From an uncultured Alphaproteobacteria bacterium (lineage in GTDB: Bacteria > Pseudomonadota > Alphaproteobacteria > HIMB59): 64,000 nucleotides of DNA. Every line of letters begins with the position of its first letter. The first letter of the stretch is position 1. A model generated the notes under the pieces. That model searched no databases. It worked only from the letters and a program-made list of their open reading frames with translations, and was not told where the DNA came from. Position numbers and translations under genes: made by a program. This document shows, in pieces, positions 1-19,906 of the stretch. The DNA lies in contig CACLZM010000002.1 in assembly GCA_902611415.1 (NCBI GenBank), positions 62,001 through 126,000 of the forward strand. The letters are read 5' to 3'.

Positions 1-296
1 TGGCTCATTAAAAATTGCTGAGGAAAGGGCACTTTAAGATAAGAGGCATATTGCCTAGTAAAAAAGTAATTTAAGGGATACTGGATAAATTCTAGATTAC
101 CATTCTCAAGAGCATCAAGAGTGCTACGAGAATAATTCAAATGCTGCATTACATCCTCAACAGAAATATTATTTTCTTGCCTGATTTGTGCTAAACAACG
201 CAAATACTCTTCAATATCTCTTAGGGATTGGGGTTCATTTTTTTTATTAGAGGACAACCTCCTACCTAAAGTAGGAGTAATATAATTAGACTTCAT
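1..296 (-). CDS. RodZ-like HTH_25 domain protein, N-terminal part (truncated by window start)
   Basis: Minus-strand reading starts ATG at 296: MKSNYITPTLGRRLSSNKKNEPQSLRDIEEYLRCLAQIRQENNISVEDVMQHLNYSRSTLDALENGNLEFIQYPLNYFFTRQYASYLK. This is the RodZ-type N-terminal HTH pattern. Not in the ORF track because it runs off the edge. Confidence 0.65.
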   Translation of the reverse strand, partial: MKSNYITPTLGRRLSSNKKNEPQSLRDIEEYLRCLAQIRQENNISVEDVMQHLNYSRSTLDALENGNLEFIQYPLNYFFTRQYASYLKVPFPQQFLMS

Positions 297-401: not shown

Positions 402-866
402 ATGTCTAAAACAAAAGAAATTATCACCATTGAACATACCCTAAAAGAGGTTCTTAAAAATTTAAGTGATCAAGACATTCAAGATATCACTGGGAAGTCT
501 AAGTCTTATATATACAAATGTGCTGATCCTGACGACAGTGATAGGAATATACAATTTAGAACTGTCATTCGGTTAGAGCATGCTATGCATAAAATTTACC
601 AAAAAACTCCTTTTAGCAATTTTTTGAAAGATTATCTAGCAACCACCCAACCTGAAAAACCTGCTAGTGAGAGTGAAGTACAATCAGAGATATTAGCAAT
701 AGGCGGAAGATTGGGAGATTTAATGGATGCTGTGCGTGAGTCAATGGATGAGAAAAGTTCAGGGGGGTCAAAAATAGTCCCTCATGAAAAAGAGAAAATT
801 TACCAAGACATCCAAAAATTAGATGATCAGTTGAGTAAAATTAAGAGTGTGTTAAAGTCACTCTAA
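402..866 (+). CDS. CII-like HTH cytosolic protein (copy 1)
   Basis: IEHTLKEVLKNLSDQDIQDITGKSKSYIYKCADPDD...EILAIGGRLGDLM; paralogous to 4446..4907; the TGKSxSxxxKCxDxxD pattern resembles phage regulatory CII-type proteins. Confidence 0.6.
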   Translation: MSKTKEIITIEHTLKEVLKNLSDQDIQDITGKSKSYIYKCADPDDSDRNIQFRTVIRLEHAMHKIYQKTPFSNFLKDYLATTQPEKPASESEVQSEILAIGGRLGDLMDAVRESMDEKSSGGSKIVPHEKEKIYQDIQKLDDQLSKIKSVLKSL

Positions 867-867
867 T

Positions 868-2253
868 TTGTTTTTAAGGGGGATTATTTTAGGATTTTGG
901 GTTTTTTTTTCCAGTGTTAGCTGGGGAGCAGAAATTTGTGAACGACTTTTAAAAAAAGACTTCAGAGAAACTTCTAACATAAGGCTTGCTTATAACGACA
1001 GCGGTGTAGTTCTTGAGCAAAATCAACCTATTATCAACAAAAAACGCTTTGGTTCCTTCGCTTTTAATACCCCACTTAAGGTGGGAGACCGTATCTTAGC
1101 TGTTGATCAAAAACTGGTTGCCTCCAATGATACCGATGCTTACTTGTATTTATCCAACTTACTAGAAACCTCAGCAATGAGAGATCTCTCATTAACTGTT
1201 CAACATTTAGATGGGGAAGAGGAGATAGTTGATCTAAAAAGAATTCCTTATCTAGGTCACCCTATAGTCGAGGCAGATATAATATTAAATGATTTTGAGG
1301 TAACTCAGCAAAGTAGTAAATCAAATCTAAATTTAGAGGTGAATTTGCAGTGGCAAAATGAAGATTTAATACATAATTTTTTCAATTTAACAGATCTTGA
1401 TAAATCACCTATCAAATGTATTTTCAGAAAATCAGCTGAACTTGAAAATATCTTACAAAAAATTTGGTATCCTACATTTGAAACTACGCAAACAGGATCT
1501 TTTATAAATGATATTACTTTTAAAAGTTTACTTATTACAAATGATAAATCTGATCCTTTTAATTTTGTTCTCAAACAACAAATTAATTATCAGGTAACTA
1601 ACTCCTCCGATTTTAGAAAATTCCCTTTTGATAATATCTCAACATCTGCCGATTTTATATTTCAAGATGTTGATTTAAGCACCTCTCCTCGATACAACCC
1701 AGAGTTTAGTATGATGGAGGGCAATGAAATTTTGTATGAATGGGAAATTAATGACCACCGTTTAAACTGTTGTGATACTCAACTTTATGGGCAAGGAGTG
1801 CTTCAAACACTCGAATACAGTTTTGATCTCAATCGCAAATCTTTCTACTATATTTTAAAGATCATTCTTCCAGTGATCTTCCTAGTCTACCTATCCTTTA
1901 GTGTTTTTTACATCAGGGCAAGAGAGTTAGAGTCGAAACTGGCAGTTTCAATGGGTAGTTTGTTAACTTTGGTTGCCTACAACTTTGTATTTGGAGACGA
2001 TGTTCCAAAATTAAACTATATCACTATTTTAGATGCTTGGATTTTACTTTCATATTTATTTGCTGGCTTATCTACCATGATAACTATATGGAGCTATTGG
2101 GACTATCATAGGGATAATCAAACTGGTCTCTATAATACAATCGATAGTAAACTTCGGTGGTTTGTCCCAATAACCTACCATCTTTTTTTGGTTATTTTAT
2201 GGTGGGGGATTACAAAAAATTGGAATTTTTATGGGACAAGTATTCCTGTCTAA
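868..2253 (+). CDS. Pentameric ligand-gated ion channel (Cys-loop/GLIC-like) with signal peptide and N-terminal PDZ-like domain, copy 1
   Basis: Signal peptide; PDZ-like PLKVGDRILAVDQKLVAS; ligand-binding-domain motif FRKFPFDN; TM block FYYILKIILPVIFLVYLSFSVFYIRARELESKLAVSMGSLLTLVAYNFVFGDDVPKLNYITILDAWILLSYLF aligns with the GLIC M1-M3 pattern; TTG start right after the upstream stop. Confidence 0.85.
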   Translation: MFLRGIILGFWVFFSSVSWGAEICERLLKKDFRETSNIRLAYNDSGVVLEQNQPIINKKRFGSFAFNTPLKVGDRILAVDQKLVASNDTDAYLYLSNLLETSAMRDLSLTVQHLDGEEEIVDLKRIPYLGHPIVEADIILNDFEVTQQSSKSNLNLEVNLQWQNEDLIHNFFNLTDLDKSPIKCIFRKSAELENILQKIWYPTFETTQTGSFINDITFKSLLITNDKSDPFNFVLKQQINYQVTNSSDFRKFPFDNISTSADFIFQDVDLSTSPRYNPEFSMMEGNEILYEWEINDHRLNCCDTQLYGQGVLQTLEYSFDLNRKSFYYILKIILPVIFLVYLSFSVFYIRARELESKLAVSMGSLLTLVAYNFVFGDDVPKLNYITILDAWILLSYLFAGLSTMITIWSYWDYHRDNQTGLYNTIDSKLRWFVPITYHLFLVILWWGITKNWNFYGTSIPV

Positions 2254-2479
2254 AATTTATTAATTTCTCCCCAATCTTTATTTTTAAAAATTAATATCTT
2301 TGTCTTTAGTGCAAAGACCTCTCTCTTCCTTTCTGTTTTCTAGTTACTCCTTCTCTAAGTCATTTCCTACCAGGTTAATAAATGACAAACAAAAAAAAGA
2401 GAGAGGAAAAATTGAGGTGGTTTTTTCATGGTTCCTTTCTGTGCTACGGCTAATCCCATCCTCCTGTACATTAGCCGTG

Positions 2480-3079
2480 GTGCAAAGAGGAAAATACTTA
2501 ATACTAATAATTACCTCTCTATTTATTGTCTCCTTAAGCTCAGCGATGACTTTAGAAAAATTCCACGGTTGGAATATTCAATTATTGGAGGAGGAAATGA
2601 TTGCAATCGAACGTAGTGGTGATGTTGAAGACTCAGAAAATATAATTTTTGTTATGACAAAAAATAATTGTGATCGTGTTCTTCAATTTTTTGAATTATT
2701 TACTTTATCAGTTCACCCTGATCTTACAAAATTAATAGATAAAGAAATTGAACTCAAGGAAAATGGCTATTCAACCACCGGAACGGTGTATGAAATATAT
2801 CCGTATAAGAACGGACACATGATTTTAATAGGCATGGGTTCATACAATCATGAAACAATTAAAGAATATTATACTTTTCATAAACGCTCTCGCTTAACAG
2901 TCACTGATGTCCCATTCGAGGAACCAGTAGCCTTAAGAACTTTCATAGACCTGCCTACAATTCAGTGGGCTATGCCTCAAGTAGAGGAGGCGATGGATAG
3001 AGCGCATAGGCACTGCAAAAAAATACCTGACCCCATTTCAGCTAGCCTAAACAATTCTCAGAAAGGACTAAAAACATGA
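2480..3079 (+). CDS. Secreted hypothetical protein (paralogous to 3878..4420)
   Basis: Within ORF 2300..3079. GTG start inferred at 2480 from the signal peptide YLILIITSLFIVSLSSA; mature part HGWNIQLLEEEMIAIERSGD...NNCDRVLQFFELF. Confidence 0.5.
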   Translation: MQRGKYLILIITSLFIVSLSSAMTLEKFHGWNIQLLEEEMIAIERSGDVEDSENIIFVMTKNNCDRVLQFFELFTLSVHPDLTKLIDKEIELKENGYSTTGTVYEIYPYKNGHMILIGMGSYNHETIKEYYTFHKRSRLTVTDVPFEEPVALRTFIDLPTIQWAMPQVEEAMDRAHRHCKKIPDPISASLNNSQKGLKT

Positions 3080-3303
3080 CTTTTTTACATTTTTTAGCTG
3101 CAGTTATATTCTTGTATGTTGCAGATGAGCAAAATCACAGTCAACTTCATTTTGGTAAGAAGTGCTTTCAAAATGAAAACGGGGATATTATTTTTTCTCA
3201 CATTTGGGTAACACGACCTTTTGATGAATTACCTGCTAACAAAGAGCAATGTACATTGCCAGAGGAGCCCGAGCCCCCGGTAGTTCCTAAATATGGGAAA
3301 TAA
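3076..3303 (+). CDS. Small secreted hypothetical protein
   Basis: ORF overlaps the upstream stop by 4 bp; hydrophobic N-terminus and proline-rich C-terminus. Confidence 0.45.
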   Translation: MTFLHFLAAVIFLYVADEQNHSQLHFGKKCFQNENGDIIFSHIWVTRPFDELPANKEQCTLPEEPEPPVVPKYGK

Positions 3304-3332
3304 TATTTTCCATGAAATTAAAATTTACTTAT

Positions 3333-3422
3333 GCGGCCTTAGCTTAAATGGAAAAGCGTCCCACACTGAGATTTCTTGCGGGAAGGGAAGATGCAGGTTC
3401 GACTCCTGATCCGGCTGCACCA
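3333..3422 (+). tRNA. tRNA-like sequence with non-canonical anticodon arm (possibly degenerate)
   Basis: Acceptor-like GCGGCC.../...GGCTGC A CCA; D-arm TAGCTTAAATGGAAAAGCG; T-arm CAGGTTCGACTCCTG; encoded CCA. The anticodon stem CCCACA/TGCGGG has an A-C mismatch and an 11-nt loop. Confidence 0.45.
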
Positions 3423-3464
3423 AAACTATTTGGGGAGTTTTCAAAAAAACTTATAATACCTCTT

Positions 3465-3878
3465 ATGGGTCATAGCTATTTTATTGAATGTCAAAAATGT
3501 GATTACAAATCTGAAGAGATCACAATGGGAGTTGGCTTTTTATTTGGAAATATTGATGACATACTCCATGCACTTAGAGGTAATGACAAAAAAACAGTAC
3601 AACTCCTTAAGCACCGAAAACAAATTCATACCCATTATTCACGAGGTTATTCTCTTTATCAGTGTAGTAAATGCCACTCATTAGAAAATAAGTGTCACCT
3701 TACATTGTACAACCAACAAGGAGATCTTATATTTCAAACAGAGTCTTATTGCCGGTCATGTCAAAAGGCAAGAGAGTATATGCCAGAGGATAGTGATAAT
3801 GAAACTATTCCAGATCTGTGCTGTCCTAAATGTCATCAGCAGGATCTTAAAGTCTTGCTAGGTATACTGTGGGACTGA
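3465..3878 (+). CDS. Zinc-ribbon hypothetical protein
   Basis: Four CxxC motifs (ECQKC, YQCSKC, SYCRSC, CCPKC); start moved to ATG 3465 because the upstream part of ORF 3348 lies in the tRNA-like element. Confidence 0.5.
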   Translation: MGHSYFIECQKCDYKSEEITMGVGFLFGNIDDILHALRGNDKKTVQLLKHRKQIHTHYSRGYSLYQCSKCHSLENKCHLTLYNQQGDLIFQTESYCRSCQKAREYMPEDSDNETIPDLCCPKCHQQDLKVLLGILWD

Positions 3879-4420
3879 TGTACTATTCAAATGTGAATTT
3901 AAAATACTTTATATTCTTCTTAATTTGGCTGACACCAATTTTTGCCTTTGCTTATCCATGGCAAATTGATCAAGATGAAAATTTCATCACTTTAAAAAAA
4001 AATGGTGAAATCCAACATGGAAATAACATCCACTTTAATTTTGATAAGGATAATGGTTGTAGGTTTAATGTTTTTTTCTTTATTTATACGATGCAAGATA
4101 ACCCATCACCTTTAAATGAAATCTTTGAAGATCAACAAATTTATTTAAATTTTGGTGGCCAAGAGATATTAGCGAGTGTTGCTTTTACATCACCATTTGG
4201 ATTAGGCGAGATTGCAGGTATTTATGTGGCTCAAAATATCCCACTTTCAAAAGAATTTATCAAAATGAACGAGGATATGTTACAAGACGACTTAATGACT
4301 ATGACTATTCAAAAAGAGTATGCAAAGTATTTTGATATTCCCGAAGAAAATTGGAGTTTTGAAAATTTTGAAGACAAAATCTACGAAGCTCATAATATTT
4401 GTATAGCTAATCAAATATAA
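3878..4420 (+). CDS. Secreted hypothetical protein
   Basis: ATG at 3878 overlaps the previous stop; signal peptide LKYFIFFLIWLTPIFAFA; PWQIDQDENFITLKKNGEIQHGNNIHFNFDKDNGCRFNVFFF resembles the 2480..3079 product. Confidence 0.5.
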   Translation: MYYSNVNLKYFIFFLIWLTPIFAFAYPWQIDQDENFITLKKNGEIQHGNNIHFNFDKDNGCRFNVFFFIYTMQDNPSPLNEIFEDQQIYLNFGGQEILASVAFTSPFGLGEIAGIYVAQNIPLSKEFIKMNEDMLQDDLMTMTIQKEYAKYFDIPEENWSFENFEDKIYEAHNICIANQI

Positions 4421-4445
4421 ATATTGGACACATTTCAATAAAATA

Positions 4446-4907
4446 TTAGTTCTTGTCTACTGATATTTTTAAATTAACAATCTTTTCTTCAAGACTTGCT
4501 ATCGATTTATAAATTTCATCTTTCTCTCTTTTGGATAAACTAATACCACCTTCACTATGAATATGAGTAAAATCTTTTATTTTCTCCATCAATGATCCAA
4601 TCCTACCACCTATATTCAATAAAGCTGTAGTTATGGCTTCATATTCATTAACTGTGCCTTTACTTTTTATTAAGGCTTCGATACAGGACGTGAGAGGTGT
4701 CCCTAAACCTTTTTTCAAAGCTAAAATGTCTAATTCTACAGCATCTTTCAAGTGAAGATTATGTTCATTATCATTTTCATCACTGCACTTCCGAAAAAAA
4801 GACTCTGATTTACCAGTCGCACTCTTAATATCCTCTTTATCAATTTTTCTTACAATTTCTTTTAGAGCTTGTTCTATTGATAAAAACTCTCTTGTATATC
4901 CAGACAT
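4446..4907 (-). CDS. CII-like HTH cytosolic protein (copy 2)
   Basis: IEQALKEIVRKIDKEDIKSATGKSESFFRKCSDENDNEHNLHLKDAVELD...ALLNIGGRIGSLMEKIKD...KREKDEIYKSIASLEEKI; alignable with 402..866. Confidence 0.6.
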   Translation of the reverse strand: MSGYTREFLSIEQALKEIVRKIDKEDIKSATGKSESFFRKCSDENDNEHNLHLKDAVELDILALKKGLGTPLTSCIEALIKSKGTVNEYEAITTALLNIGGRIGSLMEKIKDFTHIHSEGGISLSKREKDEIYKSIASLEEKIVNLKISVDKN

Positions 4908-4915
4908 TTTCTTAT

Positions 4916-4941
4916 GTGAAATAACTTATAATCTTTTTCAC
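4916..4941. promoter_or_regulatory. Spaced dyad GTGAAA-N14-TTTCAC (site A)
   Basis: In the divergent gap 4908-4988; same half-sites and spacing as 5525-5550 and 10842-10867. Confidence 0.5.
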
Positions 4942-4988
4942 TTTAATTTAATCATCTTTGACACATACTTTCAACTAGGACTGATTAA

Positions 4989-5525
4989 ATGAAAAAGGGA
5001 AAAATTGTTGATATTACTGATTACTTTGAAGAAGGAGACGAGTCAAAAAAACCTCAATACATACCTCAAATTACAAATGCAAAAAGAGATTTAAATTTTT
5101 TAAATTCCAAATTAAATCTTGACGTGGTTTATAAAGAAATTGATAAGTCTAAAAATAAGCATGATAAAAAATGGGGTGGTGCTGATACTTGTATTATATC
5201 TCCTAATGATATGAAAAAATTTCAAAATGACCCCAGGGGTTTTAATTATATTGTTACACATTTTTACAAAGAACTTAGTTGGTTATTTATCGTGATAACA
5301 CAAGTATGTCATAGAAATAATTTGTATGACTATTTAACTAAATACCATTTTTATTATTTACTTGCTGTTAGGGCAAATAACTACATAAAAAAACACAATG
5401 AAAAAGAATTAAGGAAAAATCAAATATACTCTAGAAAGTATGTTCAAAGTCTTTTTGATGAAGTATTAGATGAATTTGATTTATTTATTCACCAATTAGA
5501 GAAAGAATTAATCTCAGTTAATTAG
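4989..5525 (+). CDS. Hypothetical protein
   Basis: 178-aa ORF divergent from the CII-like gene; no family recognised. Confidence 0.45.
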   Translation: MKKGKIVDITDYFEEGDESKKPQYIPQITNAKRDLNFLNSKLNLDVVYKEIDKSKNKHDKKWGGADTCIISPNDMKKFQNDPRGFNYIVTHFYKELSWLFIVITQVCHRNNLYDYLTKYHFYYLLAVRANNYIKKHNEKELRKNQIYSRKYVQSLFDEVLDEFDLFIHQLEKELISVN

Positions 5526-5576
5526 TGAAAAATAAAATTAAACATTTCACTAAAAATTTTTAAACAAATCACTAAA
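5522..5576. promoter_or_regulatory. Dyad TTAGTGAAA-N14-TTTCACTAA (site B) plus direct repeat AACAAATCACTAAA
   Basis: Upstream of the AlpA-like gene; AACATTTCACTAAA (5541-5554) is identical to 10858-10871; a degenerate copy starts at 5563, 22 bp later. Confidence 0.55.
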
Positions 5577-5598
5577 TGTATTTTATAAGGAGAAAATA

Positions 5599-5808
5599 AT
5601 GAAAACTAGAAATGCGAAAATACATTTAAATGAAAAAAGTCTTGCTTCTTATCTAGACATTCCATATCACACGTTAAGGTATTGGAGGAAGACGGGACAA
5701 GGTCCTAAATTTATGAAATTATTAAATGGCAAAGTTAGCTATGTTAAGTCTGACATTGATAAATTTCGTGATGAACAATTGAAGAAGGAGAGTATAAATG
5801 ACTTATAA
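5599..5808 (+). CDS. AlpA/excisionase-like (HTH_17/MerR-type) DNA-binding protein
   Basis: LNEKSLASYLDIPYHTLRYWRKTGQGPKFMKLLNGKVSYVKSDIDKFRDEQ. Confidence 0.75.
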   Translation: MKTRNAKIHLNEKSLASYLDIPYHTLRYWRKTGQGPKFMKLLNGKVSYVKSDIDKFRDEQLKKESINDL

Positions 5809-6130
5809 TATTTCTATGAACAAACCTGCTGAAAATTTTTTCTTGTCTTTCTGGAGAGGAGAATTAAGTTTAGGTGCATCTTTTTGGGGGATTTTTGTTT
5901 TCCTGAGTATCGTAGTTACTAGTTTGCTTGGAATATCTATGGACTATATACCAAAGCAAATATCTTTTGCTTTGATGACCGCCTTTATGATTTACACATG
6001 TGTAGGTATGTACCAATCAAATATTAAGCATGAGTCACATGGATTTATCACTTTTATATTACATCTTTGTGTTCTTAGCAGGTTTATCAAAGCAGTTTTA
6101 TTTTTGTTCGCAACAATTACAAGCTTTTAA
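5798..6130 (+). CDS. Small integral membrane protein
   Basis: FWRGELSLGASFWGIFVFLSIVVTSLLGI and further hydrophobic segments. Confidence 0.5.
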   Translation: MTYNISMNKPAENFFLSFWRGELSLGASFWGIFVFLSIVVTSLLGISMDYIPKQISFALMTAFMIYTCVGMYQSNIKHESHGFITFILHLCVLSRFIKAVLFLFATITSF

Positions 6131-6133
6131 GTT

Positions 6134-6442
6134 ATGAAAAAAATATTTGCTCTAATAATTATTATGATTTCTTTAAATTCCTATTCTTACGCAAAAGAAT
6201 ATAAAGCATTTTTATGTAATTATTACGTGTCTTCAACCTTGGCAGGTGATTACTGCCAAGGAACAAACAGTTGGTATAAAATTTACTTCCCAGATTTATA
6301 TAAAACAAAGGAAATTTGCAATTTGCAAAGTGAGGCAATATTCAATAATAATTTGATTTTAGAAATATTCCCCGATTATCAATCATCTGGGGATGAGGTA
6401 AAGTCTTGGGTATCTGGATGCGATAATTCATGGTTGCACTAA
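6134..6442 (+). CDS. Small secreted hypothetical protein
   Basis: Signal peptide MKKIFALIIIMISLNSYSYA, then a Cys-containing mature part. Confidence 0.5.
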   Translation: MKKIFALIIIMISLNSYSYAKEYKAFLCNYYVSSTLAGDYCQGTNSWYKIYFPDLYKTKEICNLQSEAIFNNNLILEIFPDYQSSGDEVKSWVSGCDNSWLH

Positions 6443-6487
6443 AAAACTAACTTAAATTCTTAATATATATTTGTTACTGTTAATAGA

Positions 6488-7888
6488 ATGGTAACAAAGT
6501 TTAGATATTTATTAATTTTTATTATTAGTCTGTTTTTTTTTAATGGAACATTTACAATTTTAAAAGCTAGTGAAATTTGTAATAAACTTATAAATGTTAA
6601 TTACTTTTTTTCAGATCGATATATTGACAAATACGATCATGGAATAGGCTTAGAGGATTATGATGACCCAAACTCTGATAAAATTTTTATTTTGTCTATT
6701 GAAAATTTTTCCCCTGCAAAAGAAATTGGCCTTGAAAAGTTTTTAGAAATTCACTCAATAGATAATATAAAAATTCACGATAATCTAAAAGATAATTTTG
6801 AGGACACAATCGATTATATTTACGATCTAATGGACAAAAATAGTTTTTCTATCAAGGTCGTCGATGAAAATTCCGAAATTATTAATTATGATATAACTAA
6901 GTTCACATATAAATCTGAACCAGAAGTTATAAGTAATTATTATATTGATAAAATTCAAATTGTTAATTTAAACCGAGAAGCAAAGGCAAGATTTAGAATT
7001 TGGACTGACTGGAAAAATCCAAATTTTTTGAGTTACATAAAAAAATCTTTTAACAATAATCAAGATTTTTCATGCTATTACACAAATAAAGACAATATTG
7101 AAAAGCTTTTACAAAAATTTTGGTATCCGATTACCAGAGTTGATCAGACTGGTAGCACATTCTCCCTTGTAGATATTCTTGGTGTTGGTATTGACACATC
7201 TCTTGAGGATCCTTTTTCAATTACTTATGATATAGAAAGTTCTGTACCCACTGATGCAAATTTAAAGAAGTTTCCTTTTGACAACATGTCATTTTATTTT
7301 GATTTCAGTTATTTCTCAGGTGGAGATTTATTTCTCGCTGATGATTGGTTCGAACAATTAGATGATGGTGTTGATAGAACTAACCGTTATCTTTATGAGT
7401 GGCAAATTGTAGATGCCGAATTAACTTATGATCAAGACACATATGATATTGGAGGAGATCTTGTTTATCCACTCCATTATTTGGAATTTGAGTTAGAGAG
7501 AAATACGCTTTATTATTTTATGAAGATAATTTTTCCCGTCATTTTTATAGTTTTAATTTCTTTTTCAGTATTTTGGATTAAAAATCAGGAGATCGAAGCA
7601 AAACTTAATGTGTCTATAGTGAGTTTACTTGCTCTTATTGCATATAACTTTGTTTACAATTCAGAATTACCAAAATTAAACTTTATCACAATAATTGACT
7701 CATTAGTTTTCATTTCATATTTGTACTCTGGTGCAGCAACGATTGTTTCAATATACTCCTATTACGATTATAGAAGAGATGGCCAGAAAGGTGAGTTTAA
7801 TTCATTAGATATAAACTTGCGATATATAGCACCAATATCATATTTTTTAATTATTCTCACTACGTCGTTTATTATATACAATAACTAA
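6488..7888 (+). CDS. Pentameric ligand-gated ion channel (Cys-loop/GLIC-like) with signal peptide and N-terminal PDZ-like domain, copy 2
   Basis: PDZ-like FSPAKEIGLEKFLEIHSIDNIKI; LKKFPFDN; TM block LYYFMKIIFPVIFIVLISFSVFWIKNQEIEAKLNVSIVSLLALIAYNFVYNSELPKLNFITIIDSLVFISYLYSG; paralogous to 868..2253. Confidence 0.85.
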   Translation: MVTKFRYLLIFIISLFFFNGTFTILKASEICNKLINVNYFFSDRYIDKYDHGIGLEDYDDPNSDKIFILSIENFSPAKEIGLEKFLEIHSIDNIKIHDNLKDNFEDTIDYIYDLMDKNSFSIKVVDENSEIINYDITKFTYKSEPEVISNYYIDKIQIVNLNREAKARFRIWTDWKNPNFLSYIKKSFNNNQDFSCYYTNKDNIEKLLQKFWYPITRVDQTGSTFSLVDILGVGIDTSLEDPFSITYDIESSVPTDANLKKFPFDNMSFYFDFSYFSGGDLFLADDWFEQLDDGVDRTNRYLYEWQIVDAELTYDQDTYDIGGDLVYPLHYLEFELERNTLYYFMKIIFPVIFIVLISFSVFWIKNQEIEAKLNVSIVSLLALIAYNFVYNSELPKLNFITIIDSLVFISYLYSGAATIVSIYSYYDYRRDGQKGEFNSLDINLRYIAPISYFLIILTTSFIIYNN

Positions 7889-7913: not shown

Positions 7914-8738
7914 ATGGGTACAGCCTTTTACTTATCTCTTAACTCTATACCAGCTATCTTTATTCTAGGAATCTTTTTACTTAGAGAGAAAAAAAAAGAG
8001 CCTATATCAATAGTATTATCTGCTTTCGCTTTGACCTATATTATAGTCATACCATTAGATATATTAATTAGCATTGTAGATCCTTTTCTTGATACCAACT
8101 TTCAAAATAAAGAGGCAAACCCTTTTTTAACAGATGAGGTTTTTTATAAACATTATTATTCTATTTTTGCTTTTTTTAGAGCAGCTTTTCTTGAAGAATT
8201 TTTGAAATTCTCAGTATTATTTTTATTTATTTATCAAAATACTAATTTTGATGAACTATCTGATGGTGTAATTTACGGTGCAGCAGTAGGCTTGGGTTAT
8301 GCTGTTGTAGAAAACTATAATTATCTTTTTAATTATTATTTATATGACACACCTATGCTTTATTTTATTCAAGACAGATGGTGGGCATTAATTGCACATG
8401 TAACTCTAGGCATTATTATGGGAATACTTCTAGCTAAATCAAGATTGTTAAATGTCAATAAATACCTAACGTTATTTTCATCCTTGTGTGTCCCAATATT
8501 TTTACATGGACTTCACAATTATACGTATGATAGTAAAATACTTTATGAAAACAATATTCATTTTTATTTACTAATATTTTATTTTCTTGTTATTCTTCTT
8601 TCCTTAGTATTTTTACCAAAATTAGAGACTTATAAATTTAGATATGAAAAAAATTCAATTTATGGCGACTATATCAAGATTTCTTTTTGCGGTTTAATTT
8701 TTTCATTGATATTAGCAATATTTTTTGGTTTCATTTAG
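7914..8738 (+). CDS. PrsW-family glutamic-type intramembrane protease
   Basis: AAFLEEFLKFSVLF (EExxK), FDELSDGVIYGAAVGLGYAVVENYNYLF, HVTLGIIMGILLA, HGLHNY; polytopic. Confidence 0.75.
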   Translation: MGTAFYLSLNSIPAIFILGIFLLREKKKEPISIVLSAFALTYIIVIPLDILISIVDPFLDTNFQNKEANPFLTDEVFYKHYYSIFAFFRAAFLEEFLKFSVLFLFIYQNTNFDELSDGVIYGAAVGLGYAVVENYNYLFNYYLYDTPMLYFIQDRWWALIAHVTLGIIMGILLAKSRLLNVNKYLTLFSSLCVPIFLHGLHNYTYDSKILYENNIHFYLLIFYFLVILLSLVFLPKLETYKFRYEKNSIYGDYIKISFCGLIFSLILAIFFGFI

Positions 8739-8740
8739 TT

Positions 8741-9328
8741 ATGAAACTAATCAAATGTATATTTTTTTTAGTTATATTGAACATATCCACAAATTCTTTT
8801 GCAGGCAAAGATGATCCTATTTTCTATGATGAGGTAGGTGGCTGGGAAATTGGTATCCTTCCGCACCTAAATTTTGGTTGCTATACATCGTCACCAATAT
8901 ATGAAGACGGCGAAATGTTATCAGTTTATGTAGATAACAGACAAAACGCGAAAAACGTTTACTTGCATCTTGTTAACCCTTTGTGGAGCAGTTTAAGAGT
9001 TGGCGATATTCATGAAATGGGTGTAATTTTCGAACCATTTTCTGATAAATGGATTGGTGAAGCAGAAGTTGTGAGTTATGGCGATCATAAAGGAATTGAA
9101 TTCATAGTTGGCACAGAATTCCTTACCACCTTTGCAGAAATGGACTCAATTAGATTTACATATAATGACAGAGACTTATTAGGTTTAATTTTGGATGGTA
9201 GTTACAATGCAGCGGTTTCTCTTGTAGAGTGCCAGCAATTAGTTGCTGAAGCTGCGTCTTCAGGAAACAGTTTAAGTATGAAAAGGGAATTAAAAAAACC
9301 ATCCACCAGGGATCCTTTTAGACAGTAA
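8741..9328 (+). CDS. Secreted hypothetical protein
   Basis: ATG 8741 inside ORF 8687; signal peptide MKLIKCIFFLVILNISTNSFAG; GGWEIGILPHLNFGCYTSSPIYEDGEML... Confidence 0.55.
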   Translation: MKLIKCIFFLVILNISTNSFAGKDDPIFYDEVGGWEIGILPHLNFGCYTSSPIYEDGEMLSVYVDNRQNAKNVYLHLVNPLWSSLRVGDIHEMGVIFEPFSDKWIGEAEVVSYGDHKGIEFIVGTEFLTTFAEMDSIRFTYNDRDLLGLILDGSYNAAVSLVECQQLVAEAASSGNSLSMKRELKKPSTRDPFRQ

Positions 9329-17217: not shown

Positions 17218-17371
17218 CAAGATAATACCAAGGTATCTGTTGGAGGGGTTTCTTGTAGCGCGGAGGTGGGAGAGTTGGGTTTAGTGATTTCGGGGAACGA
17301 ACCCACTGAACGGTTGAAAAATAAGAAACAAGCGATCCATCAACGTATCCGTGCTTACAGTACTGATCTTG
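17218..17371 (+). ncRNA. Candidate structured RNA of unknown family
   Basis: GC-elevated intergenic stretch with nested pairings CAAGAT/ATCTTG, GTTTCTT/AAGAAAC, TGGGTT/AACCCA; strand uncertain. Confidence 0.25.
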
Positions 17372-17566
17372 GTCACGATTCTCGCTATGGGTGCTGGATT
17401 GACCCCTTCGAGTTTGTTTACAAGACCAAAAGAAAGTCCAAAACCTATGAATATTACAAAAAAATCATTATTTATAGGTATTTTTTGGTTGTGTCAAAAT
17501 ATGTTGGAATTGGGGTCGATTACTCTTAACACGAGGACTCTTTTTGCTATTATCTCGTGCTTAATC

Positions 17567-19906
17567 ATGGCTGCGTTTAAAAAAATTGTTGTAATAGGAG
17601 CAGGGACAATGGGCTCTGGTATTGCTGCTCACTTGGCTAATTCTAACCGCCAAGTAGTTTTGCTTGATCTCAAAGGAAAAGACAAGCCTAACCAAATATC
17701 TGAAAATGCCATTGATATTATCAAAAAGTCAGACCCGCCTCTATTAGTGGAAAGGTCTCGAATTGATCATATCAAACCAGGTAATCTTGAAGACGATTTT
17801 GATGAGATTAAAGATGCGGATTGGGTTATAGAAGCTGTTGTTGAGCGTATTGATATCAAACACAAACTTTACTCCCAAATTGATAAAGTTCGCAGCCCCA
17901 ACTCTATTATTTCATCTAATACTTCGACTATTCCTCTTTCAATTTTGACACAAGAGATGTCCGATAGCATGAAAGCAGATTTTTGTATTACTCACTTTTT
18001 TAATCCTGTCCGATTTATGAGATTATTAGAGATCGTTGAAACACCAACTATGAATAAAGATAAGATGGGTGGACTTCGTGATTTTTGTAAAAATGAGCTA
18101 GGTAAAGGAATTGTCAATTGTAATGATACTCCTGGTTTTATCGGTAATCGAATTGGTGTGTATGCAATGCAGGTTGCGATGTATGAGGCATTAGAGCGAG
18201 GCCTCCCAGTAGAAATTGCAGATGCCTTATTTGGGCGACCTTTAGGAATTCCTAAAACAGGAGTTTTTGGACTGTATGATCTCATTGGTATTGATTTGAT
18301 GAAAGATGTGCTTGCAAGTTTCAAAAAAGAGTTACAAGAAAATGATCCTTTTATGGATGTGGTGAAACCTCATCCTCTGGTCGAGCAGTTACTTGAAAAA
18401 GGTTTTAATGGAAATAAGGGCCCTGGGGGGTTTTATCAAACAACAATTGTTGATGGTGAAGAACATGTTAAAGCCATGAACACTTCAGACATGAGTTATT
18501 ATGATTTTGATAAAGTAGATTTAGAAATCGCAAGAAGAGTTGAGAAAGAGGGCATCAAAGCACTTCTTGATGATGATAGTGATTATGGTCGATATGCTTT
18601 TGCAGTATTAGCTAAAATTATTAATTATAGCGCTTTTTGCATTCCCGAGGTTTCATCAAAGGTAACTGATATAGATGATGCACTTCGTATGGGGTTTAAC
18701 TGGAATGAGGGTCCATTTGAATTATTAAATGAGTACGGGCTCACCAAATTTGTCCAACGACTTCAAGATGAAAAACAAGATGTTCCTGAGCTGCTAACAA
18801 CTATGATTAGATTAAAACAAGAACCTTATGACTCTACTTCTTCACGCGCCTATAATCATGAAGCAGGTATGAAATTTATCTCTAGAGGAGCGGGAGTTCG
18901 CCGATTAGGTGACCACAAAAAATATGCAAATCCATTATCTCGAAATTTTGCTGCAACTATTTGGCAATTTAATGATGAACCTCGAGAACAGAAGATACTG
19001 TGTTGTGAATTTCACACTAAGGCAAATGCTTTGAACGCAGATGCAATGAATATTCTAGAGGAGTCAGTTAACCGTCTTGAGCAAGATAATTATCAAGGAC
19101 TAGTTGTTTATAATGAGGCCATGAACTTTTCTGCAGGAGCTGATTTAAATACCATGATTGGTTTAGCTGACGTAAAAGATTGGAAAGGTATCGATAAATA
19201 CCTATCTGATTTTCAATCTGCATGTATGAAAATGAAATATGCTTCGAAACCAACAGTTAGTGGCGTTGCTGGATTAGCTATTGGTGGTGGTTTTGAAGTA
19301 GCATGTCAAACTTCTAAGATGGTTGCTCACATGAATAGTACTTTAGGTTTAGTAGAAACAGGTGTCGGCCTTGTTCCAGGTGGTGGAGGGTGTAAAGAAT
19401 TATTATGGAGATGGGTACAAGACAAAAAATACATAAATAACCATGATCAAGCAGCTCTTCAGGTATTTGATATTATAGGATATGGCCTAATGGCCCATTC
19501 CCCATTGCAAGCTAAAAAGCATAAATTTTTTCTAGATGATGATATTTTTGTTTTAAACAGAGATAATCTTCTTGTGGAGGCCTTTAATCAAGTATCATTA
19601 TTAAAAAATGGATATTCAGCTCCTGAAAAGCCAAAGTTCACACTAAGCGGACCTGAGGTAAAAGAGAAAATGCACCAAGTTTTATTGGATTTAGAGCAAA
19701 AAAAAATCATTTTTGGCTATGATGTTGATATTGGTCTTCATCTAGCAACCGTACTTAGCGGTGGCGATACAACTAAATCAAAAGAATTGTCTGAAGCTGA
19801 TCTTTATGATTTAGAGCGACAGTCTTTGATAAATTTAATACAATCCAACAAGACGAGGGATAGGATACATGCAATGTTGTCTACGGGGAGAAGACTAAAA
19901 AACTAA
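17567..19906 (+). CDS. 3-hydroxyacyl-CoA dehydrogenase/enoyl-CoA hydratase (FadB/FadJ-type)
   Basis: Start at ATG 17567: MAAFKKIVVIGAGTMGSGIAAHLANS; hydratase region GVAGLAIGGGFEVACQ. Confidence 0.85.
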   Translation: MAAFKKIVVIGAGTMGSGIAAHLANSNRQVVLLDLKGKDKPNQISENAIDIIKKSDPPLLVERSRIDHIKPGNLEDDFDEIKDADWVIEAVVERIDIKHKLYSQIDKVRSPNSIISSNTSTIPLSILTQEMSDSMKADFCITHFFNPVRFMRLLEIVETPTMNKDKMGGLRDFCKNELGKGIVNCNDTPGFIGNRIGVYAMQVAMYEALERGLPVEIADALFGRPLGIPKTGVFGLYDLIGIDLMKDVLASFKKELQENDPFMDVVKPHPLVEQLLEKGFNGNKGPGGFYQTTIVDGEEHVKAMNTSDMSYYDFDKVDLEIARRVEKEGIKALLDDDSDYGRYAFAVLAKIINYSAFCIPEVSSKVTDIDDALRMGFNWNEGPFELLNEYGLTKFVQRLQDEKQDVPELLTTMIRLKQEPYDSTSSRAYNHEAGMKFISRGAGVRRLGDHKKYANPLSRNFAATIWQFNDEPREQKILCCEFHTKANALNADAMNILEESVNRLEQDNYQGLVVYNEAMNFSAGADLNTMIGLADVKDWKGIDKYLSDFQSACMKMKYASKPTVSGVAGLAIGGGFEVACQTSKMVAHMNSTLGLVETGVGLVPGGGGCKELLWRWVQDKKYINNHDQAALQVFDIIGYGLMAHSPLQAKKHKFFLDDDIFVLNRDNLLVEAFNQVSLLKNGYSAPEKPKFTLSGPEVKEKMHQVLLDLEQKKIIFGYDVDIGLHLATVLSGGDTTKSKELSEADLYDLERQSLINLIQSNKTRDRIHAMLSTGRRLKN

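Follow-up and report, generated by a model that had tools for sequence, protein, structure and literature searches.

Predicted pentameric ligand-gated ion channels with a PDZ domain in tiny ocean bacteria

Pentameric ligand-gated ion channels (pLGICs) include relatives of the receptor channels of nerve signaling, and for most of their bacterial members neither the natural ligand nor the role is, to our knowledge, established. DegS is an established sensor of C-terminal peptides. Among the described bacterial channels, DeCLIC (6v4a, 9ftg, and others) possesses an N-terminal periplasmic accessory module with a proposed regulatory role (PMC9897478, PMC12664993), and its N-terminal domain affects gating kinetics (PMC9897478). 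In the main text of their survey, Tasneem et al. describe bacterial pLGICs with PBP-I, Cache, and MCP-N sensor domains located between signal peptide and receptor core (PMC549065); judged by eye, one of the relatives collected here (L128) resembles the PBP-I type.

The stretch of 64,000 nucleotides analyzed in this study (the window) encodes two pLGICs, channels A and B (Table 1), the only two pLGIC genes found in their genome, which is 81% complete. The hosts of these channels are tiny ocean bacteria. As an earlier note had claimed, the two reading frames are paralogous and share a common layout: they align with 33% identity over 447 aa (E 5e-64), including the N-terminal region. Signal peptides of both were judged by eye. 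The note had treated positions 868-7888 as one unit; instead, they belong to two distinct cassettes, and several further genes lie between the channels. A-type channels come with a CII-like gene and B-type channels with a PrsW protease.

Table 1. Features of the A and B cassettes; positions refer to the window.
Feature	Position	Strand	Basis or remark
XRE-type regulator (HTH_25), first gene of A cassette, divergent; 3' end precedes window start	1..296	-	Pfam HTH_25 E 1e-7, above cut-off
CII-like (Phage_CP76 / phrog_101-like) putative DNA-binding protein, 154 aa	402..866	+	ends 1 base before channel A
Channel A, PDZ-containing pLGIC subunit, 461 aa	868..2253	+	TTG start
A N-terminal helix with Cys24	928..978	+	alignment A1 with PDZ-less L059, L061; helix in both models
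A PDZ domain, ~residues 42-127	991..1248	+	Pfam on family, PDB profile search, fold search; invariant D-x-G carboxylate-binding loop
A ligand-binding (extracellular) domain	1249..1833	+	Pro-loop FRKFPFDN, loop-C Cys301-Cys302; beta-rich in model
A four transmembrane helices	1840..2250	+	Neur_chan_memb match; M2 with Glu355
Secreted or membrane-anchored protein, 259 aa	2300..3079	+	conserved 3' of channel A
Secreted protein related to 259-aa protein	3869..4420	+	23% identity, E 4e-6
Second CII-like protein, B cassette	4446..4907	-	30% identity to 402-866; phrog_101-like family
B cassette gene, 178 aa, function unassigned	4989..5525	+	syntenic in G014, G044, G022
Small putative membrane protein, B cassette	5798..6130	+	syntenic in G014, G044, G022
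Small secreted protein, B cassette	6134..6442	+	syntenic in G014, G044, G022; present in G108
Channel B, PDZ-like pLGIC subunit, 466 aa	6488..7888	+	ATG start
B PDZ-like region, ~residues 47-141	6626..6910	+	profile-profile match to A
PrsW-family intramembrane protease	7914..8738	+	PF13367 1.3e-25; starts just 3' of channel B
Secreted protein, 213 aa, B cassette	8687..9328	+	syntenic in G014, G044, G022; homologue in G108

By sequence, A and B are pLGIC subunits of the GLIC/sTeLIC/ELIC kind, and would form homopentamers in the inner membrane. In phmmer searches of the PDB, channel A matches sTeLIC (5.3e-15) and GLIC (2.7e-13) with alignments spanning residues 218-446, and channel B matches sTeLIC (9e-15) and ELIC (1.5e-12). 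The NCBIfam model LGIC_1 yields 3.8e-19 for A, under the model's cut-off, and 8.4e-19 for B; the Pfam model Neur_chan_memb scores A at 27.6 bits versus a cut-off of 28.1. A full-length model of A gave 644 Foldseek matches at E <= 1e-3, the best 50 of which are all pLGICs; this model is of low confidence (mean pLDDT 55), such that the placement of the PDZ domain relative to the pore is not readable from it. Four long transmembrane helices are predicted (residues 325-348, 351-378, 387-415, and 424-449). The motifs FRKFPFDN/LKKFPFDN and PKLNYIT/PKLNFIT with the following Asp, which the earlier note had pointed out, are present and align with sTeLIC and GLIC, and the pLGIC fold it expected in the C-terminal part is borne out by sequence, profile, and fold searches (phmmer matches to sTeLIC, GLIC, and ELIC at 1e-15 to 1e-12). 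Across 30 aligned sequences, Cys184, Glu355, and F252, P253, and D255 of the Pro-loop are invariant. Glu355 occupies M2 position -2' if GLIC is aligned gap-free, while HMMER opens a two-residue gap in the same stretch; an invariant Glu near the cytoplasmic end of M2 suggests that the pore is probably cation-selective. The cysteine pair that brackets the 13-residue Cys-loop of metazoan-type receptors is absent around FPFD in the alignment of both A and B.

The extra N-terminal region of A is a PDZ domain according to both sequence profiles and predicted fold. PDZ_2 assigns 14.2 bits (E 0.056) to the whole protein and 17.5 bits to the isolated region, both below the Pfam cut-off; the A orthologue L021 reaches 40.8 bits with PF00595 versus a cut-off of 23.2 (2.9e-10). 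PDZ families are top-ranked in 9-10 of the 11 A-family members, and nearly all PDB matches of a profile of this N-terminal domain (NTD) are PDZ chains. When the whole genome is searched with PDZ_2, channel A (17.4 bits) is outranked only by HtrA- and CtpA-like proteins. The fold model of the region (pLDDT 64) finds nearly exclusively PDZ proteins among its best Foldseek matches, at a probability of about 1 for the best of them but an E-value of only 0.009 and TM scores of 0.4-0.54; these are peptide-binding bacterial periplasmic PDZ domains of CtpA, DegP, DegS (with OMP-type peptides), and RseP. Hence, the PDZ-like region which the earlier note placed at about residues 35-135 of A stands, with the Pfam match of the orthologue, the PDB profile, and the fold matches in agreement. 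In the NTD alignment of 11 sequences D24 and G26 are invariant, and the x-Phi-G-Phi-type loop is kept as D-x-G-V/I. A carboxylate-binding loop opening with an invariant Asp is unusual and could disfavour a carboxylate. For channel B, PDZ_2 alone yields only E 0.038, and an HMM built from A-type sequences scores B no better than the best shuffled sequences; it was dropped as a detector in favor of profile-profile comparison, by which hhalign aligns the B and A regions over 109 columns (E 3.9e-5, probability 70%). The PDZ-like core that the earlier note saw in B is thus retained by homology to A, with a weak single-sequence signal, and B is a putative PDZ-bearing channel on this basis; alignment A6 of the divergent NTDs was unreliable and was left out.

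The fusion of PDZ domain and channel proposed in the note is found as well, although the domain does not simply sit at the N-terminus: judged from the alignments, it is inserted between a conserved N-terminal helix/Cys segment and the strand that opens the ligand-binding domain. Relatives without a PDZ domain retain the helix and both cysteines as well as the remainder of the channel, and the PDZ domain thus represents a separable module. A Cys24-Cys184 bond may pin the N-terminal helix to the receptor core. In genome G022, the corresponding genomic slot holds an allele that lacks the PDZ domain; the domain is consequently not essential to the role of the cassette. Where flanking genes share 93-97% identity between genomes, the channel genes share 66-81%, and divergent alleles, even PDZ-less ones, replace one another between near-identical flanks. 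This suggests diversifying selection on partner specificity, and repeated swapping would fit control of the channel by a protein partner that changes and lies outside the inner membrane. The apparently short channels of G009, G012, and G033 are cut at contig ends and do not represent separate genes.

The best explanation, held tentatively, is a peptide-binding pLGIC with a ring of PDZ domains, in which binding alters pore opening. The periplasmic part of each subunit would hold a PDZ domain between N-terminal helix and ligand-binding beta-sandwich, and five such domains would circle the periplasmic rim. They may recognize a periplasmic partner by its C-terminus or by an internal peptide, and this binding could move the balance between closed and open pore, much as other channels are modulated by accessory N-terminal domains. 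Gating by periplasmic C-terminal peptides is plausible, and the earlier note's suggestion that a peptide or the C-terminus of a misfolded protein gates or clusters the channel is likewise an inference. A more specific version, a peptide- or protein-gated channel whose gate is controlled by the periplasmic PDZ domain and whose recognition modules are exchanged between strains by recombination, appears somewhat unlikely.

Alternatively, the PDZ domain may serve as a docking or clustering tether to a periplasmic or outer-membrane protein, e.g., the small secreted proteins of the cassette, and have no role in gating; sensing of a small molecule or of pH would then fall to the ligand-binding domain, as it does in GLIC and sTeLIC. 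We regard this as somewhat unlikely. The PDZ-less allele in the same slot is in agreement with it, and so are the conserved secreted neighbours at both loci, which we count among the conserved operon partners. The 259-aa protein follows the channel in A-type loci, and homologues of 24-28% identity follow the PDZ-less channels L122 and L123; no Pfam family matches it. Also in its favor, the last residue of a 183-aa protein is hydrophobic in each of the seven orthologues printed (I, V, V, V, L, I, L). However, for the 259-aa protein, A's closest conserved neighbour, most orthologues have T or S as the last residue.

It is improbable that the region is a degenerate PDZ fold acting as a mere structural spacer. 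The case for it comes from channel B and from L119, L121, and L124, whose N-terminal regions have diverged to the edge of Pfam detection or beyond. Against a spacer, an A-type orthologue passes the PDZ cut-off, and the invariant residues of A-type domains cluster in the D-x-G loop and the RFGS and GD-I segments.

Also improbable is a phage- or competitor-related system, with a channel that would collapse the membrane potential when open and would be under the control of the paired CII-like and XRE regulators, and with allele swapping as the outcome of an arms race. CII-like and Cro/C1-like regulators do border the channel. The CII-like protein upstream of A has a weak Pfam CP76 match, and phrog_101, 'CII-like transcriptional activator', matches six of nine family members (best 7e-8); within the genus, 31 of the 32 genomes with a pLGIC carry its gene, and no genome lacking a pLGIC does. 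Strong matches to the XRE regulator are likewise confined to channel-bearing genomes. Presence of pLGICs is patchy (32 of 52 genomes), and alleles are replaced between near-identical flanks, although such replacement fits a surface receptor or sensor as well. A known defence system was rejected, as PADLOC returned nothing convincing, only weak regulator-like and REase_II-like matches, and so was a phage or viral origin, with no homologue in viral contigs or 50,697 phage records.

Least probable is that the B-type channel and PrsW constitute one periplasmic stress sensor, by a logic analogous to PDZ control in DegS/RseP: PrsW (PF13367, 90.5 bits versus a cut-off of 23.5; 86.7 versus the 225 required by the NCBI equivalog for true PrsW) adjoins eight of eight B-type or f2-family pLGICs and otherwise occurs in only 11 of the 154 remaining genomes of the order (19 of 162 in total), and in G022 pLGIC and PrsW have diverged together (40% and 64% identity) between flanks of 82-98%, but A-type channels lack a nearby PrsW (nearest 12.7 kb away, or on another contig), the cluster contains no recognised anti-sigma or sigma factor, and the genomes counted are related rather than independent observations.

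Returning to a PDZ domain that binds peptides, a self-ligand was considered, since A-type channels end in Phi-x-Val, resembling a class-II PDZ ligand on a presumed periplasmic tail. This idea was mostly rejected for three reasons: GTC is invariably the last codon and TAA AA invariably follows it, although only 54 of 388 Val codons counted are GTC; the PDZ-less L122 also ends in GTC TAA AA; and four PDZ-bearing channels (L073-L076) lack the ending. This pattern suggests conservation at the DNA level or a recombination junction. At -2, a hydrophobic residue is kept with varying codons, which leaves a weak case.

If the PDZ domain binds its partners as proposed, the search for a ligand narrows to proteins or peptides. 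Alleles with and without the PDZ domain occur naturally in one genomic slot and offer a ready comparison. Conserved neighbours (regulator, protease, and secreted proteins) make function accessible to genetics, and the system as a whole would give structural biology a compact model of accessory-domain control of a receptor channel. Neither in the literature searched nor among the other pLGICs of about 780 sampled genomes did we find a PDZ-pLGIC fusion. With sTeLIC, GLIC, and ELIC, the two channels share the ligand-binding domain and four-helix block, the FPFD Pro-loop, the M1 proline, and an M2 ending in PK/PR, whereas those channels have no accessory PDZ domain and A and B carry about 90 extra residues. 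In DeCLIC, the accessory module consists of two jelly-roll lobes and not of a PDZ domain, and PDZ is absent from the main text of the survey by Tasneem et al. (PMC549065). DegS, RseP, DegP, and CtpA share the periplasmic PDZ fold and provide the best structural matches of the A domain, DegS-peptide structures among them; there, however, the PDZ domain is joined to a protease, and here to a predicted ion channel.

By sequence comparison, A and B are certainly members of the pentameric ligand-gated ion channel (pLGIC) family, albeit divergent ones. Both open reading frames and the family assignment of the earlier note are confirmed: among all PDB sequences, A matches sTeLIC (5.3e-15) and GLIC (2.7e-13), B matches sTeLIC (9e-15) and ELIC (1.5e-12), and NCBIfam LGIC_1 finds both (3.8e-19 and 8.4e-19, each far under the model's strict bit cut-off). 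Pfam Neur_chan_memb scores slightly below its cut-off in A. The full-length model of A is poor (mean pLDDT 55, pTM 0.34); of the 644 Foldseek matches of this low-confidence model with E <= 1e-3, the 50 listed are all pLGICs, with DeCLIC and sTeLIC among the first. A and B, called paralogues in the earlier note, share 33% identity over 447 residues, N-terminal region included, and no other pLGIC gene was found in the source genome (81% complete).

Four lines, from sequence profiles and a fold model, settle the extra N-terminal region of A as a PDZ domain. In A alone the signal is weak (PDZ_2, E 0.056 for the whole protein, 0.0052 for the isolated region). Among 11 aligned N-terminal regions, ten match PDZ_2 and nine each PF00595 and PDZ_6, the best (E 2.9e-10; 40.8 bits, cut-off 23.2) being L021, the orthologue in genome G014. 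The profile of these regions finds PDZ proteins almost exclusively in the PDB, DegQ first at 1.4e-6. In the AlphaFold2 model of the A region, of moderate confidence (mean pLDDT 64), strands and helices follow one another much as in a PDZ fold; the top of its Foldseek list consists almost entirely of PDZ proteins, with CtpA, DegP, DegS and HtrA2 in the lead and modest values (E 0.009 and up, TM-scores 0.4-0.54). Finally, in a whole-genome PDZ_2 search only HtrA- and CtpA-like proteins outrank the A region. The PDZ-like domain proposed from the sequence holds directly for A, fold included; for B the call is weaker and indirect, through homology to the A region: profile-profile comparison gives a full-length match (109 columns, E 3.9e-5, probability 70%), while PDZ_2 gives E 0.038 and an HMM from A-type regions only scores B no better than shuffled sequence.

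The domain had been described as an N-terminal addition. It lies in the N-terminal part, yet is inserted behind a helix: two PDZ-less channels of the same genus (L059 and L061, about 405 aa) have the N-terminal helix with its cysteine followed directly by the ligand-binding domain, so the PDZ domain is a module between these two segments. In 30 aligned channels, with or without PDZ, Cys184 is invariant and the N-terminal Cys24 nearly so; a Cys24-Cys184 bond may fix the helix to the receptor core. Glu355 in M2, likewise invariant, would suggest a cation pore; it falls on position -2' if the alignment to GLIC is gap-free, a provisional register given the gap that HMMER puts there.

Of the 52 genomes of the genus, 32 contain a channel gene, either complete or cut off at a contig end; those relatives that carry names are genomes of single-cell type, recorded as uncultured Alphaproteobacteria or Pelagibacteraceae. 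B orthologues are limited to three genomes, and a second family of the order holds distant relatives in three. Among 385 genomes sampled from the class and 399 from the phylum, only a handful have other pLGICs. None of these aligns to the PDZ part, Pfam found no PDZ in three of them, and none was seen by eye in further sequences; L128 resembles, by eye, a known periplasmic-binding-protein fusion. This survey represents one search model and a genome sample, and PDZ fusions may exist elsewhere. The term PDZ is absent from the main text of Tasneem et al. (PMC549065), from Jaiteh et al. (PMC4795631) and from the DeCLIC paper (PMC9897478). A keyword search for PDZ with pLGIC in open-licence literature returned no relevant paper; an earlier description is possible.

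Recombination appears to exchange entire channels, parts of the pore and even the PDZ domain, because divergent channel genes sit between near-identical flanks. Between the window and G014, the CII-like and 259-aa genes are each 96% identical and the channel gene 67%; along the alignment, 97% identity gives way to 51-70% shortly after the channel gene begins, and 98% is reached again just past its end. In G041 mainly the last part is replaced, from about M1-M2 to the end. At the B locus of G022, flanking genes share roughly 82-98% amino-acid identity, PrsW 64%, and the channel, entirely without PDZ, 40%. Divergent alleles between such flanks were noted at both loci (also L117, L074, L120). We tentatively attribute this swapping to diversifying selection acting on how the channel recognises its partner or ligand. 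The ending GTC TAA AA is invariant in otherwise divergent A-type genes and recurs in PDZ-less L122, possibly as a recombination junction or regulatory signal.

The most likely of our readings, still a tentative one, is that a ring of PDZ domains would bind the terminus of a periplasmic protein, and that this binding would modulate gating. Alternatively, the domain may dock the channel with no role in gating, or be a structural spacer. Two further alternatives concern the neighbourhood. In the A cassette, an XRE-type regulator gene points away from the genes for a CII-like protein, the channel and a secreted or anchored protein of 259 aa; the cassette might be a phage- or competitor-related system. 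Of the genomes in the genus, 31 combine a channel with a CII-like gene, 20 lack both, one has just the channel, and the CII-like gene never occurs by itself (Fisher p 1.7e-13, relatedness of genomes ignored). The channel of the B cassette is accompanied by a CII-like gene specific to that cassette, by small genes, by a PrsW-type protease gene beginning directly downstream of it, and by a gene for a secreted protein. Across the order, PrsW turns up in just 19 of 162 genomes, yet it adjoins the channel in 8/8 genomes whose channel is B-type or belongs to the second family; the channel could be coupled to PrsW proteolysis.

The small secreted proteins near channels (also L131, 15450-15977) gave no Pfam family; the 259-aa and 183-aa proteins are related, the others similar by eye. 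In G036 (L072; G036:C7:41553-43407), stops or frameshifts interrupt the CII-like gene and channel start, possibly a pseudogene or assembly error. Elsewhere in the window, one ORF reads by eye as a hydrophobic stretch followed by an apparent fatty-acid oxidation (FadB-like) enzyme; its given start codon is probably wrong.

Features of the window discussed in the text
Feature	Position	Strand	Length
XRE-type regulator	1-296	-	
CII-like gene, A cassette	402-866		
Channel A	868-2253		461 aa
Cys301-Cys302 codons in A	1768-1773		
GTC TAA AA	2248-2255		
Secreted/anchored protein	2300-3079		259 aa
Small secreted protein	3869-4420		183 aa
CII-like gene, B cassette	4446-4907	-	
Channel B	6488-7888		466 aa
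PrsW-type protease	7914-8738		
Small secreted protein	8687-9328		213 aa
FadB-like ORF	17351-19906		

The adjacent Cys301-Cys302 lie in predicted loop C (beta9-beta10 hairpin) in 26/26 A-type sequences listed, and are absent from B and from the PDZ-less channels. According to Tasneem et al. (PMC549065), a dyad of this kind is restricted to some of the cation channels of animals. Compared with the nicotinic pair, the register of Cys301-Cys302 seems shifted.
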